A stretch of DNA of 41,768 nt from Candidatus Goldiibacteriota bacterium (GTDB lineage: Bacteria > Oederibacteriota > PGYV01 > DYJU01). Position 1 is the stretch's first letter. Each line of letters starts with the position of its first letter. The notes under the pieces were generated by a model. It was not told where the DNA came from. It did not search any database and saw only the letters and a program-made list of their open reading frames with translations. Position numbers and translations under genes: made by a program. Location: positions 1 through 41,768 of the forward strand of contig CALHNI010000013.1 of assembly GCA_938034975.1 (NCBI GenBank), given 5' to 3'. Below, in pieces: positions 28,964-36,259 of this stretch.

Positions 28964-28969
28964 AATTTG

Positions 28970-29581
28970 ATGAAAGAAAATGAGTTAAGTTATAGAAAAA
29001 GAGTAATAGAAAAAATAAAACCGTATTTTGCAGGTAAAACCTTGCTTGATGCCGGTTGTGGAGATGGTTCAGATTCATATCTTTTAAAGGATTACTTTGA
29101 AAAAATAGAAGCGTTTGATATTCAGGAAAATGAAAAATGGAAAAAATACTCATCCGCTGGAATAAATTTTATTCAGGCAGATGTTGAAAAACTTCCTTAT
29201 TCTGATAATTCATTTGATGTTGTAATTGAAAAAGATATGCTGCATCATACAAAAGACCCGTTTTTTGCAATAAAAGAACTTATCAGGGTTGCCAGAAAAA
29301 GAATTATCCTCATTGAGGCAAACAGATACAATCCGATATTCTTTTTACATTTGACTTTGATGAAAGGACATCAGCATTTTACACAGGAAAAATTCAGGGA
29401 TATTATAAAATCAGCCAATATGAATTTTGAAATTAAAAATTTTTCAGCCAGGGTATGTCCTTTTAATAATAAATTTTTAATTTCTGTTGTAAATTTATTT
29501 TCTGATATTGCTGAATTTTTAAAACCATTTTATTTTTTCATAGAGTATAATCTCGGTATAATATTTAAAAATGGAAAATAA
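28970..29581 (+). CDS. Class I SAM-dependent methyltransferase
   Basis: A 203-residue methyltransferase of the Methyltransf_11 type. Motif I is LLDAGCGDGSDSYLL (about 25-39). Later landmarks are FIQADVEKLPYSDNSFDVVIEKDMLHH (motifs II/III) and the VARKRIILIEA strand. The C-terminal part carries hydrophobic stretches (FLKPFYFFIEYNLGIIF). I prefer the ATG at 28970 to the TTG just before it. It starts 6 nt after purC and overlaps pepP by 11 nt. The substrate is unknown. Confidence 0.85.
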   Translation: MKENELSYRKRVIEKIKPYFAGKTLLDAGCGDGSDSYLLKDYFEKIEAFDIQENEKWKKYSSAGINFIQADVEKLPYSDNSFDVVIEKDMLHHTKDPFFAIKELIRVARKRIILIEANRYNPIFFLHLTLMKGHQHFTQEKFRDIIKSANMNFEIKNFSARVCPFNNKFLISVVNLFSDIAEFLKPFYFFIEYNLGIIFKNGK

Positions 29582-30620
29582 AATTAATAAAATTTCAGAA
29601 ATTTTGGATAAAAGATCAGTTTTTTATGTTTCTAATCCTTCAGATATTTTTTACCTAACTTGTTTTTCTGGAACATTTGCTAAGATATTGATAACAAAAG
29701 AAAAAGTGTATTTCATTACAGATAAAAGATATGAAGGGGAAATAAAAGATTTGCATCTGCCATTTTATTTTGATGTTTTAATTACAAAAGATTTTAAAAA
29801 AGATCTGAAATTGATTATTAAGGGAAAAAATAAAATATTTATGAGTAAAAAAACAGCGCTTAAAGATTATTTAATATTTAAAAATAAAAAAGTAAATTTT
29901 AATGAAAGAATAATGGAATTGCGAATGATAAAAACAAAAGAAGAAATTGAAAATATAAAAAATGCAGTAAAAATAACAGAAAAAGGGATAAAGTATATTG
30001 CGAAATTTTTAAAAAAAGGAATCACAGAAAAAGAAATAGCAATTGAATTTGAATATTTTATTAAAAAAAATGGTGCAGATGGGTTATCATTTGAACCAAT
30101 AATTGCATTTGATAAAAATTCGGCGGTTCCGCATCATAAAACAGGGGCGGAAAAATTAAAAGAAAATTCAATTGTTTTGGTTGATGTGGGAGTTAAATAC
30201 AGGGGCTATTGTTCTGACTTGACAAGAGTTATTTGCTTTAATATAATAAAATCTCGTCTTGGTAGAATAAAAAAATACCATGATATTTTAATAAACACAA
30301 GAGATTTTTGTTTTAAGTTTATGATGCATGGTATTTCATGTTCAAAAACAGATAAAAAAGCCAGAGAATACTTAAAAAAATATAAAATTGATAAGTTATT
30401 TTTACATTCGCTTGGGCATGGTATAGGAGTTGATATTCATGAGCCGCCTTTTTTAAATAAAAATGAAAAAATAAAATTTAAAAAAGGAATGGTTGTAACC
30501 TGTGAACCAGGAGTTTATTTTAAAGAAGATTTTGGTTTAAGAATAGAAGATGATTATTTAATCACAGATAATTTGCCAGAAAAGATTTCAGAAATAGATG
30601 AAAATTTAATTATAATTTAA
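29571..30620 (+). CDS. M24-family aminopeptidase (Xaa-Pro dipeptidase type)
   Basis: A 349-residue metallopeptidase that removes N-terminal residues next to proline. The creatinase-like N-terminal domain (1-115) is followed by the pita-bread catalytic domain. All five metal ligands are present: Asp205 (VDVG), Asp216 (SDLTR), His283 (GHGIG), Glu312 (CEPG) and Glu326 (RIEDD). It overlaps the methyltransferase by 11 nt and lies directly before efp. In Bacillus the homologous yqhT also precedes efp, so this neighbourhood is conserved. Confidence 0.92.
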   Translation: MENKINKISEILDKRSVFYVSNPSDIFYLTCFSGTFAKILITKEKVYFITDKRYEGEIKDLHLPFYFDVLITKDFKKDLKLIIKGKNKIFMSKKTALKDYLIFKNKKVNFNERIMELRMIKTKEEIENIKNAVKITEKGIKYIAKFLKKGITEKEIAIEFEYFIKKNGADGLSFEPIIAFDKNSAVPHHKTGAEKLKENSIVLVDVGVKYRGYCSDLTRVICFNIIKSRLGRIKKYHDILINTRDFCFKFMMHGISCSKTDKKAREYLKKYKIDKLFLHSLGHGIGVDIHEPPFLNKNEKIKFKKGMVVTCEPGVYFKEDFGLRIEDDYLITDNLPEKISEIDENLIII

Positions 30621-30637
30621 AAGGAGGAGTTTTATTT

Positions 30638-31201
30638 ATGATAGCCGCAATTGATTTCAGGCCAGGTGTAACATTTATCATGGATAATATTATTTATGAA
30701 GTTGTTATGTATCAACATGTTCAAAGACCACGTCTTGCTCCACTTGTAAGGGCAAAGATAAGAAACCTAAAAGCAGGAACAGTTATTGAAAGAACATTCA
30801 GCCCTGATGATAAATTTGAAGAAGCAAATATAGAAATGCGAGAACTCCATTTTTCATATAAATCCGGAGAAAATTATGTTTTTGTTGATTCAGAAACATA
30901 CGAGCAATTTGAGTTTGAAGAAGAAAAAATTAAAGATAGTAAACAGTTTTTAAAAGAAGATATGGTAATTAATATGCTGCTTTACAACGGAGAAATTATT
31001 GGGATAAAACTTCCGCCAAAAGTTGATTTAAAAGTTATTCAGGCACCGCCTGGAATAAAAGGTGATTCGGCAGGTGGAGTTACAAAACCAGTAACTTTGG
31101 AGACAGGTGCTGTTGTTGATGTCCCTTTGTTTATTAAAGAAAATGATATAATAAGAATTGACACAAGAACAGGCGAATATGTGGAGAGAGTGCGTGAATA
31201 A
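30638..31201 (+). CDS. efp: Elongation factor P with an atypical tip loop
   Basis: EF-P rescues ribosomes stalled on polyproline. The 187-residue protein has all three domains, including the C-terminal LKVIQAPPGIKGDSAG and the final IRIDTRTGEYVERV. The loop that reaches the peptidyl-transferase centre reads HVQRPRLAPLVR (27-38). Arg32 therefore aligns with the Lys34 that E. coli modifies, and the usual PGKG turn is absent. No EF-P modification gene is visible here. AAAGGAGGAG lies 9 nt before the ATG. It precedes accB and accC, as in many bacteria. Confidence 0.95.
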   Translation: MIAAIDFRPGVTFIMDNIIYEVVMYQHVQRPRLAPLVRAKIRNLKAGTVIERTFSPDDKFEEANIEMRELHFSYKSGENYVFVDSETYEQFEFEEEKIKDSKQFLKEDMVINMLLYNGEIIGIKLPPKVDLKVIQAPPGIKGDSAGGVTKPVTLETGAVVDVPLFIKENDIIRIDTRTGEYVERVRE

Positions 31202-31228
31202 AAATTTTAATTCAAGGTGGTGATAATA

Positions 31229-31720
31229 ATGGGGAGAAAAGAAAAAGGGAAAAGTAAAAGTAAATCACAGAAAATTGATCTGGAATTTGTAAAACAGGCA
31301 ATTAAACTAATGGAGGAAAACGGACTTACAGAGTTTATTTATGAAGTAAAAGATATAAAGATTGGCCTTAAAAAGGCAGTTGCATCATCTTTTGTCCAGC
31401 CACAGATTGTAAATGTGCCTGAACAGGTGGTTACAACTGCTAAAGCAGTATCTGAAAGTAAAAAACCGGAAAATGAAAATCTTTTTACAGTAAAATCGCC
31501 TATGGTTGGCACTTTTTACAGGGCGTCTTCGCCTGATTCGCCGCCTTTTGTAAATATTGGTGATGTTGTAGAACCTGGCAAAACTTTATGCATAATTGAA
31601 GCAATGAAAATAATGAATGAAATTAAATCAGAAGTAAAAGGTGTGGTAAAAGAAATACTTGTGGAAAATGCCCAGGCAGTTGAATTTAATCAGCCGATAA
31701 TTATAATTGAAAAAAAATAA
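31229..31720 (+). CDS. accB: Biotin carboxyl carrier protein of acetyl-CoA carboxylase
   Basis: AccB carries biotin for the first committed step of fatty acid synthesis. I place the start at the ATG at 31229, preceded by AAGGTGGTGA; an upstream GTG would fall inside that site. In the 163-residue product an N-terminal helix region and a flexible linker are followed by the biotinyl domain. This has VKSPMVGTFYRASSPDSPPF and the biotinylation motif EAMKIMNEI (Lys127). It ends 23 nt before accC. Confidence 0.95.
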   Translation: MGRKEKGKSKSKSQKIDLEFVKQAIKLMEENGLTEFIYEVKDIKIGLKKAVASSFVQPQIVNVPEQVVTTAKAVSESKKPENENLFTVKSPMVGTFYRASSPDSPPFVNIGDVVEPGKTLCIIEAMKIMNEIKSEVKGVVKEILVENAQAVEFNQPIIIIEKK

Positions 31721-31743: not shown

Positions 31744-33087
31744 ATGTTTAAGAGAATTTTGGTTGCCAACAGGGGTGAAATTGCATTAAGGGTTATAAGA
31801 GCTTGTAAAGAACTTGGCATAGAAACTGTTGCTGTTTTTTCAGAAGCAGATGAGGGTTCATTACATGTGAGATATGCAGATCATTCTATATGCATAGGTC
31901 CTGCTGCTCCAAAGGATAGTTATTTAAACATACCTGCCATAATTTCAGCAGCAGAAGTTACAGATTCAGAAGCAATTCACCCTGGTTATGGGTTTTTGGC
32001 AGAAAATGCACATTTTGCAGAAATATGCGAACAATGTAATATTAAATTCATAGGTCCTTCACCATATTCAATAAAAATGATGGGTGATAAAGCAAAAGCA
32101 ATTGAGACAGCAATATCGCGGGGTGTTCCAACTGTTCCGGGAAGTAAAAGAATACTAAAAGATGAAAACGATGCAGTAGAATTTGCAAAAAAAATAGGAT
32201 ATCCTGTAATATTAAAAGCCACAGCAGGTGGTGGCGGTCGTGGAATGAGAATCGCTCATACTGAACTTTCTTTGAGAAATTCTTTTAAAACAGCAAGACA
32301 GGAAGCCCAAACAGCATTTGGAGATCCTTCGCTTTATCTTGAAAAATATATAGAAGAGCCAAGGCATATTGAAATACAGATAATGGCAGATTCATACGGG
32401 AATTATGTTGCTTTGGGAGAAAGAGATTGCACTATACAGAGACGGCATCAGAAACTTTTGGAAGAATCACCTTCTCCTATGTTAAATGAAAAGTTAAGAC
32501 ATGAGATGTGTTCTATGGCAATAAGAGTTGCAAAAGCAGTAAAATATGAAGGAGCAGGAACAATAGAGTTTATAATGGATAAAGATAAAAATTATTATTT
32601 CATGGAAATGAATACAAGAATTCAGGTAGAGCATCCTGTAACAGAAGAAGTCACCGGGTTTGACCTTATAAAAGAACAGTTATTTGTTGCAGCTGGTGAA
32701 AAACTGTCAATACCTGTGAACAAAGATATAAAGTTACGTGGTCATGCAATAGAATGCAGGATAAATGCAGAAGACCCTGATAATAATTTTATTCCATCAC
32801 CAGGACTTATAACTGAATATAATGTTCCTGGTGGGCATGGGATAAGAGTTGATACGCATGTTTATAAAGGTTATAAAATACCACCATATTATGACTCAAT
32901 GGTTGCCAAAATAATTGCCCATGGCAAAGACCGGGAAGAAGCAATAAATAAAATGAAAAGAGCGCTTGATGAATTTGTTATAGAAGGTATAAAGACAACC
33001 ATACCTTTGCATAAAAAAATACTTGATAATGAGAATTTTTTAAATAATAATTATTCTACGAGTTTTATTGAAAAAATGGAAAAATAA
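31744..33087 (+). CDS. accC: Biotin carboxylase of acetyl-CoA carboxylase
   Basis: AccC carboxylates the biotin on AccB using ATP and bicarbonate. At 447 residues it matches the E. coli protein (449). It starts with [19 protein letters not shown], has the glycine-rich ATP loop [14 protein letters not shown], and the catalytic [18 protein letters not shown]. The C-terminal domain is complete. accA and accD are not in the window. It is followed 14 nt later by the asp23-family gene. Confidence 0.96.
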
Positions 33088-34031: not shown

Positions 34032-34254
34032 AATTTTAAGATTCATATTTTTAAATATAGGGAAAGTTGTTGGAGTAATACTTGGATTACTTATTGCATT
34101 TTTTCTTTTGGTATTTGGATTGCTTAAAACACTTTTTATAGCAGCATTTATTATTCTTGGTTTTATTCTTGGAAAATGGCATGATGAAGGTATTTCATTA
34201 AAAAAATTAGTGAGAGAATTTTTAAATGCCCTGAAAATAGAAAAATGGCAATAA
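34024..34254 (+). CDS. DUF2273 small membrane protein
   Basis: A 76-residue protein with two hydrophobic helices, starting from the ATG at 34024 after AAAGGTGAAG; a longer in-frame start lies within amaP. The pattern IGKVVGVILGLLIAFFLLVFGLLKTLFIAAFIILGFILGKWHDEG is that of DUF2273, usually encoded beside asp23 and amaP. It overlaps amaP by 8 nt and thiD2 by 10 nt. The function is unknown, but the genomic partnership suggests one complex with AmaP and Asp23. Confidence 0.87.
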   Translation: MNEILRFIFLNIGKVVGVILGLLIAFFLLVFGLLKTLFIAAFIILGFILGKWHDEGISLKKLVREFLNALKIEKWQ

Positions 34255-34664
34255 AATTTGAAAAAGTTTTTTTCAGGATATTAGATGCCAATGCCAACAG
34301 ATTAAAAGAAGGTTTAAGGGTTATAGAAGATATAGCAAGGTTTATTAAAGAAAGTAAAAAGTTAACAGGGGAAATAAAAAAAGCAAGGCATGATGTTACA
34401 TTTTATATAAGTCAACTTTCACCGGATTATAAAAAGCAACTCAAATCAAGGGAAAGTAAAAATGATATTGGAAGAAAAACATATTCAAAAAGTGAATATG
34501 AAAGAAAAGATTTACAGGAAATTTTAATATCCAATTTTAAAAGAGTTCAGGAATCTTTGCGTGTATTAGAAGAAATTTCAAAAATAAAAAATACAAAAGT
34601 TGCAAAAAGTTTTAAAAATTTAAGGTTTAAAATATACGATCTGGAAAAAAAATTTATTATATAG
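34245..34664 (+). CDS. thiD2: ThiD2-type HMP-phosphate kinase
   Basis: A 139-residue helical protein matching the ThiD2 domain, a phosphomethylpyrimidine kinase unrelated to ThiD that is sometimes fused to ThiE. The characteristic pattern is RILDANANRLKEGLRVIEDI (11-30), then KKARHDV, SRESKNDIGRKTYSKSEYER, and a second similar helix NFKRVQESLRVLEEISKI. It ends with LRFKIYDLEKKF. It would convert HMP-P to HMP-PP, the step between ThiC and ThiE, and lies 309 bp upstream of thiC. It is the last gene of the efp-acc run and overlaps DUF2273 by 10 nt. No classical ThiD is visible. Confidence 0.85.
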   Translation: MAIKFEKVFFRILDANANRLKEGLRVIEDIARFIKESKKLTGEIKKARHDVTFYISQLSPDYKKQLKSRESKNDIGRKTYSKSEYERKDLQEILISNFKRVQESLRVLEEISKIKNTKVAKSFKNLRFKIYDLEKKFII

Positions 34665-34946: not shown

Positions 34947-34972
34947 GTTTAAAAATGTGCGAGGAGAAAAAA

Positions 34973-36259
34973 ATGACACAACTTGAAGCAGCTAAAAAAG
35001 GCATAATTACAGATGAAATGAAAATTGCTGCAAAAGAAGAAAATCTGACAGTAAAGGAATTATCAGAACTTATTGCAAGGGGAGAAGTTATAATTATAAA
35101 AAATAAAATACACAACAATATAAAAATAATAGCAATTGGGAAAAAAACAAGAACCAAAATAAATGCAAATATAGGTAGCTCAGAAGATATATGCGATATA
35201 GATCTTGAATTACAAAAATTAAAAATCTGTGTTGATTTCGGTGCTGATGCAGTTATGGATTTATCAACAGGCGGGGATATAAAAAAAATAAGGCAAATGA
35301 TTTTAAAGAATTCACCAATACCGGTCGGGACTGTGCCTGTATATGAAACTATGGTAAATACATTAAAAAATAAACGCCCAATTGATGAATTAACAAGTGA
35401 TGATTTTTTTAACATTATCAAGGAACATGCAGAACAAGGGGTTGATTTTGTTACGGTTCATTGTGGAGTAAATAAAAAAGCAGTGGAAACTTTAATTGCA
35501 CAAGGCAGAATATTAGATGTTGTAAGCAGAGGCGGTGCTTTTTTGACTTCATATATAATTAAAACAAATAAAGAAAATCCATTGTTTAAAGATTTTGACA
35601 GGTTATTAGAAATTGCTTATGAATATGATATTACTTTATCATTAGGTGATGGAATGCGGCCTGGTTGTATTGCTGATGCAACAGATAAACCACAGATACA
35701 GGAACTCATAACATTAGGCGAACTTGCCAAACGTGCTTATGAAAAAAATGTGCAGGTAATGATAGAAGGTCCTGGTCATATTCCCATAAATCAGATTGAA
35801 ACAAATATTAAAATGCAAAAACAACTCTGTAATAATGCCCCTTTTTATGTTTTGGGTCCGATTGTTACTGACATAGCCCCAGGTTATGATCATATAACTT
35901 CGGCAATAGGAGGAGCACTAGCAGGTTATTATGGGGCTGATTTTTTATGTTATGTAACCCCTGCAGAACACTTAAAATTACCAGACCTAAATGAAGTAAA
36001 AGAAGGCATAATTGCTGCCAAAATTGCTGCTCATTCAGCAGATATTGCAAAAGGAATTCCATTTGCAGTTAACCTTGATAATGAAATGGCAAAAGCAAGG
36101 AAAAATTTAGATTGGGAAAAGCAGATAAACTTGGCAATTGATAAAGAAAAAGCAAGGATTATGAGGGAAAAAGCCAGTCCATCCAACAAGGATGTTTGCA
36201 CCATGTGTGGAGAATTTTGTTCAATTAAAGAATTAAAAGATATTTTAAAAAAGATGTGA
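34973..36259 (+). CDS. thiC: Phosphomethylpyrimidine synthase ThiC
   Basis: ThiC is a non-canonical radical SAM enzyme that rearranges aminoimidazole ribotide to HMP-P. I use the ATG at 34973, 6 nt after GAGGAG; an in-frame ATG 18 nt upstream lacks a site. The 428-residue protein is of the short type without the N-terminal domain of E. coli ThiC. It has GADAVMDLSTGGDI, FVTVHCGV, SRGGAF, LGDGMRPG and IEGPGHIP. The C-terminal cluster motif is CTMCGEFCS, spaced CX2CX3C instead of the CX2CX4C of E. coli. Its TGA stop lies within the terminal repeat of the adjacent element. Confidence 0.95.
   Translation: MTQLEAAKKGIITDEMKIAAKEENLTVKELSELIARGEVIIIKNKIHNNIKIIAIGKKTRTKINANIGSSEDICDIDLELQKLKICVDFGADAVMDLSTGGDIKKIRQMILKNSPIPVGTVPVYETMVNTLKNKRPIDELTSDDFFNIIKEHAEQGVDFVTVHCGVNKKAVETLIAQGRILDVVSRGGAFLTSYIIKTNKENPLFKDFDRLLEIAYEYDITLSLGDGMRPGCIADATDKPQIQELITLGELAKRAYEKNVQVMIEGPGHIPINQIETNIKMQKQLCNNAPFYVLGPIVTDIAPGYDHITSAIGGALAGYYGADFLCYVTPAEHLKLPDLNEVKEGIIAAKIAAHSADIAKGIPFAVNLDNEMAKARKNLDWEKQINLAIDKEKARIMREKASPSNKDVCTMCGEFCSIKELKDILKKM

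Follow-up and report, generated by a model that had tools for sequence, protein, structure and literature searches.

A conserved arginine-tip loop in elongation factor P of an uncultured bacterial order

An arginine-tip loop of elongation factor P (EF-P), read initially in one sequence, recurs in all 14 genomes sampled from an uncultured bacterial order. The sequence lies in a window of 41,768 nucleotides, the whole stretch of DNA analysed here, from Candidatus Goldiibacteriota bacterium. The fold and the job of this EF-P look ordinary, and its tip would appear to be a new variant. We found no paper on this loop or on EF-P of FCPU426 in a literature search whose coverage of subscription papers and supplementary tables was limited.

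Judged from its sequence, the efp gene of the window (Table 1) is a complete EF-P and the cell's EF-P. The open reading frame starts with ATG, all three EF-P domains lie above the Pfam cut-off in one protein, and the protein reaches 223.8 bits against TIGR00038 of NCBIfam (cut-off 185.8). The predicted model (mean pLDDT 86.5, pTM 0.63) has the EF-P fold; its 21 best Foldseek matches are EF-P or EfpL chains, headed by E-value by Thermus EF-P (1ueb_A, E 4.6e-22, TM 0.65). It is the sole EF-P match at E 0.001 in the window's genome, which is 84% complete, and each of the 14 order genomes likewise gave one EF-P match, so this EF-P must serve. The PPP motif of ValS is present in 14/14 order genomes; a likely EF-P substrate thus persists and the need for EF-P probably remains in the order. 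Homologs of ThiD2 and ThiC, the latter a name we assigned by reading and take as presumptive, follow the efp-accB-accC block. Among the other order loci ThiD2 occurs in 12/13 and ThiC in 9/13, and both occur in 6/7 phylum loci, several loci ending at contig edges.

Table 1. The efp locus and its surroundings, in positions of the window
Feature	Positions	Strand	Remarks
Methyltransf_11 protein	28967..29581	+	upstream of M24 peptidase
M24 peptidase (Xaa-Pro peptidase type)	29571..30620	+	5' of efp in 13/13 other order genomes examined
AGGAGG, likely ribosome-binding site of efp	30622..30627	+	read from sequence
efp, elongation factor P	30638..31201	+	187 aa; KOW-like domain, OB domain, C-terminal domain
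Tip loop QRPRLAP, residues 29-35, between strands 3 and 4	30722..30742	+	same in 14/14 order genomes
Arg32 codon, tip residue at place of E. coli Lys34	30731..30733	+	sequence and alignment
accB	31217..31720	+	3' of efp in 20/20 loci examined (13 order, 7 other phylum)
accC	31744..33087	+	3' of efp in 20/20 loci examined (13 order, 7 other phylum)
ThiD2 homolog	34245..34664		
ThiC homolog	34955..36259		

The loop codons CAA AGA CCA CGT CTT GCT CCA encode Q29, R30, P31, R32, L33, A34 and P35, and L36, V37 and R38 come next. In the predicted model strands span residues 18-28 and 36-43, hence a seven-residue loop, 29-35, of canonical length. The sequence-only reading had given a nine-letter loop, QRPRLAPLV; its first seven letters stand as the loop, and the last two residues belong to strand 4. 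Since phmmer alignments with solved EF-Ps (four shown) are gap-free across the tip region, R32 occupies the position of E. coli K34. Set against the E. coli loop KPGKGQA (letters from excerpts of PMC11611912), the window loop changes K to Q, P to R, G to P, K to R, G to L, Q to A and A to P. This agrees with the sequence-only reading, which had described an EF-P with Arg at the place of Lys34, the PGKG turn lost and the Pro residues shifted: the protein belongs to EF-P by its TIGR00038 score, the gap-free alignments place the Arg, and Pro has moved from -2 to -1 and +3. The loop contains neither Lys nor Gly. It lacks the Lys tip, Pro at -2 and Gly at -1 of the lysine type, and with R32 at the tip and R30 rather than Pro at -2 it falls in the arginine type. 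The Gly at -1 of the EarP type is absent, Pro31 standing there in 14/14 order genomes. QRPRLAP is therefore, as had also been proposed, of neither the EpmA lysine type nor the SGRN (EarP) type.

The order was sampled in 14 genomes, six of which lie outside the set with completeness of 90% or more and contamination of 5% or less. The string QRPRLAPL is unchanged in all 14; outside the loop, pairs of order EF-Ps share 63% identity on average and 53% at minimum. Residues 29-36 form the longest invariant run, and column shuffling yields a run of at least eight in 1.1% of cases. The loop codons differ at silent sites among the order genomes, with up to five codons per residue. Thirteen positions are constant in at least 13/14 order members yet rare in the phylum, and seven of them fall within residues 29-36.

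In the rest of the phylum, PGKG is present in the loop of all 28 main-type EF-Ps compared, a count that leaves out three second paralogs (without PGKG) and one fragment; in three of 59 relatives EF-P was not matched. When a 39-residue tip profile was run against 384 genomes, the 14 order genomes reached 88.6-97.8 bits, whereas none of the other 370 exceeded 46.8 or held anything close to the order loop; 233 of the 384 genomes were without a match at E 0.001. In a second search by tip profile, centred on another genome and covering 386 genomes that mostly overlap the first set, only two order members exceeded 41.1 bits. Unusual EF-P tips are not rare, as 22 of 80 further tips read by alignment are without Lys (58 Lys, 15 Arg, 4 Gln and 3 Asn), in a sample that came from profile matches and leans to similar tips. 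Pro precedes the tip residue in none of these 80 profile-matched tips, and occupies the -1 column in none of the 59 lettered rows among 60 other EF-P rows aligned. Pro directly before an Arg tip was found nowhere else among the sequences sampled here. The sequence-only reading had allowed that the loop might prove common, and already established as unmodified in some described clade; no such case occurred among the sampled sequences.

Tips in 1166 EF-P sequences are given as 81.11% Lys and 14.75% Arg in the part of PMC6544042 drawn on here. Gln-tip loops, for example KMQQRAP and KMAQRSP, occur in other lineages (L183, L224, L202, L212, L035, L037), with Arg after the tip in most and Pro at +3, like the window loop, in some. 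Some phylum members (L059, L060, L062, L069) have a PGKGP loop, which we take to be the unmodified actinobacterial type. In three genomes of family f8, in the same phylum, the KPGKG main copy is accompanied by another EF-P, whose Arg-type loop is near GVAAGRVGA (L065/G032, L068/G026, L070/G035); these second copies form a separate group on a long branch.

A maximum-likelihood tree of 77 rows, from which the loop columns were excluded (quick search, SH-aLRT only), places the order in one clade (support 99, starred). The mapping of tip loops on an EF-P tree, which had been suggested from the sequence, puts QRPRLAPL on 14/14 members of that clade. A wider group of moderate support (90, SH-aLRT only, not starred) joins this clade to 26 of the 31 phylum rows and leaves out five, the three second paralogs among them. 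Because the order is one clade within the phylum and the main EF-Ps of the phylum carry PGKG, a single replacement of the lysine tip on the order's stem is the simplest history. No intermediate between the lysine tip and QRPRLAP appears among the sequences compared. Two other origins were considered. Horizontal gain of a foreign EF-P is not favoured, given the unstarred grouping with the 26 phylum rows at support 90. A compensated frameshift was rejected, as neither shifted frame of the ancestral AAR-CCN-GGN-AAR-GGN-GGN-GCN, worked by hand, yields QRPRLAP.

Several known systems resemble the window EF-P in part. The EarP-dependent arginine-type EF-Ps of Pseudomonas and Neisseria share the seven-residue loop, the Arg tip and the lack of Pro at -2; however, their -1 Gly is Pro in the window EF-P, which adds Pro at +3 and for which no EarP gene was found. 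EfpL/YeiP also has an Arg tip, and R33 of EfpL was unmodified by mass spectrometry according to excerpts of PMC11611912, but two more residues and a Pro at -3 set the EfpL loop apart from the window loop, which has canonical length and Gln at -3. Against the EfpL/YeiP models the window EF-P scores 130.3 and 118.4 bits, below the cut-offs of 216 and 264.05. Thermus EF-P, the best fold match by E-value, has an Arg tip on a loop of canonical length (KLGRGGA in the alignment), and the Thermus control genome gave no EarP match; a Gly flanks its Arg on either side, whereas the window EF-P has none there. Work by Pinheiro in 2020 reportedly describes an actinobacterial PGKGP EF-P that needs no modification, as Pro near the tip would stiffen the loop. 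In that protein a Lys tip sits between glycines, whereas in the window EF-P an Arg tip directly follows Pro.

The sequence-only reading had proposed genome searches for the enzymes that modify EF-P, and these returned no EarP in the 14 order genomes and neither EpmA nor EpmB over cut-off in 45 phylum genomes. EarP was also absent from the 14 control genomes of that search; a wider search, in which matches in 5/384 genomes served as positive control, found none in the phylum. EpmA exceeded the cut-off in 2/14 control genomes. At 369-589 aa, with the shortest truncated where its contig stops, the frames of the full-length EpmA matches have the lengths that LysRS would give. Weaker EpmB/KamA-like matches, below cut-off, occur in 16/45 genomes, six of them in the order and none the window's genome. 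DHS over cut-off was found in 0/14 order genomes and in 1/45 overall, outside the order, against 7/14 control genomes; genome G005 has a 24.2-bit partial DHS match with one stop. YmfI, which acts on Lys, is encoded by a gene for a generic short-chain dehydrogenase, and the Lys tip of the 5-aminopentanol type is absent from the window loop. The loop holds no Lys, which leaves beta-lysylation, aminopentanolylation and hypusine-like chemistry without a target. On this loop the known tip modifications all seem impossible.

The tail of bL27 lies near the peptidyl transferase centre. It starts with MAHTK in 10 of 11 readable order members (L275, L277, L279, L282, L283, L285, L286, L289, L293, L294) and in none of 17 readable phylum tails, which start with MAHKK, MGQHK-like letters or MAGSK; in these counts one order and one phylum row were misread by the pattern, and ten further phylum matches lie outside them. 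Two order genomes gave no bL27 match. Co-change of bL27 with the loop was rejected, as G005 has the loop yet MAHKK.

We lean slightly towards an arginine-type EF-P that acts without modification, its loop being stiffened by prolines. P31 (-1) and P35 (+3) flank the tip and would stiffen the loop. A stiffened loop may remove the need for enzymatic side-chain extension, as may the stiffer or longer loops of other EF-Ps and EfpL, and the tip residue would thus probably be unmodified; tip contact, loop stiffness and absence of modification are all three what we infer. Part of PMC11611912 gives a stiffer or longer loop as one route by which EF-P can do without modification. The single EF-P per genome, the kept ValS PPP motif, the invariance of the loop, its lack of Lys and the negative searches for EarP (0/14) and EpmA (0/45) argue for action without modification. 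The order genomes are, however, partly incomplete, and 6/14 have the EpmB/KamA-like matches below cut-off. Excerpts of PMC6544042 report that at -1 Ala or Ser is not tolerated in place of Gly in E. coli and that this Gly is crucial in P. putida. With Pro instead of the -1 Gly the tip probably departs from the known geometry, which also counts against an unmodified tip. In the same excerpts, the activity of E. coli EF-P is about 20% with K34R, versus 50% for the unmodified protein, a further point against.

The main rival, which we regard as possible though not probable, is that an undescribed enzyme of the order modifies the tip Arg (or Arg30 or Gln29), the loop being unlike the known modified types. 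Constancy of the loop across the order fits this as well. The invariance of the eight residues could equally be compatible with recognition by a modifying enzyme, and invariance alone cannot separate the two readings because PGKG in the lysine tips of the phylum is just as constant (28/28). Arginine-type EF-Ps are activated by a glycosyltransferase (PMC6544042, in part), but EarP, the known Arg modifier, was not found in the 14 order genomes. A methyltransferase gene does lie just upstream of the peptidase-efp pair, in the window and in 12/13 other order genomes examined. In G005, which has the loop, it has weak matches only (best 34% identity, E 2.5e-10), and eight stronger relatives (L164-L171), in lysine-tip phylum members, have no efp within the fetched flanks of about 1.5 kb at most. 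Beside five of these eight (L164, L166, L167, L168, L171) the family 2 glycosyltransferase of the window was matched, so the methyltransferase resembles a glycan gene; we judged it unlikely as tip modifier and set it aside. A changed job, in which the factor acts on other arrests and ABCF proteins and YebC2 (other factors known here from paper titles) handle prolines, strikes us as improbable. The -1 Gly needed by both EF-Ps tested in the cited part of PMC6544042 is absent here, as a changed job might lead one to expect, whereas the locus between peptidase and accB-accC, the single copy, the conserved domains and the ValS PPP motif fit the ordinary job. A sequencing or assembly error or a decayed gene is scarcely credible when 14/14 genomes agree, synonymous variation is present and the frame is open; chance or error is very unlikely as the source of the loop.

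According to the part of PMC6544042 used here, known EF-P modifying enzymes are missing from the genomes of over half of bacteria, and how EF-P works in these is open. The loop of this order, with neither the -1 Gly nor a Lys, would offer a clean test of whether plain Arg on a rigid loop suffices. If instead an enzyme of the order modifies the tip, the order would have a further way of arming EF-P.
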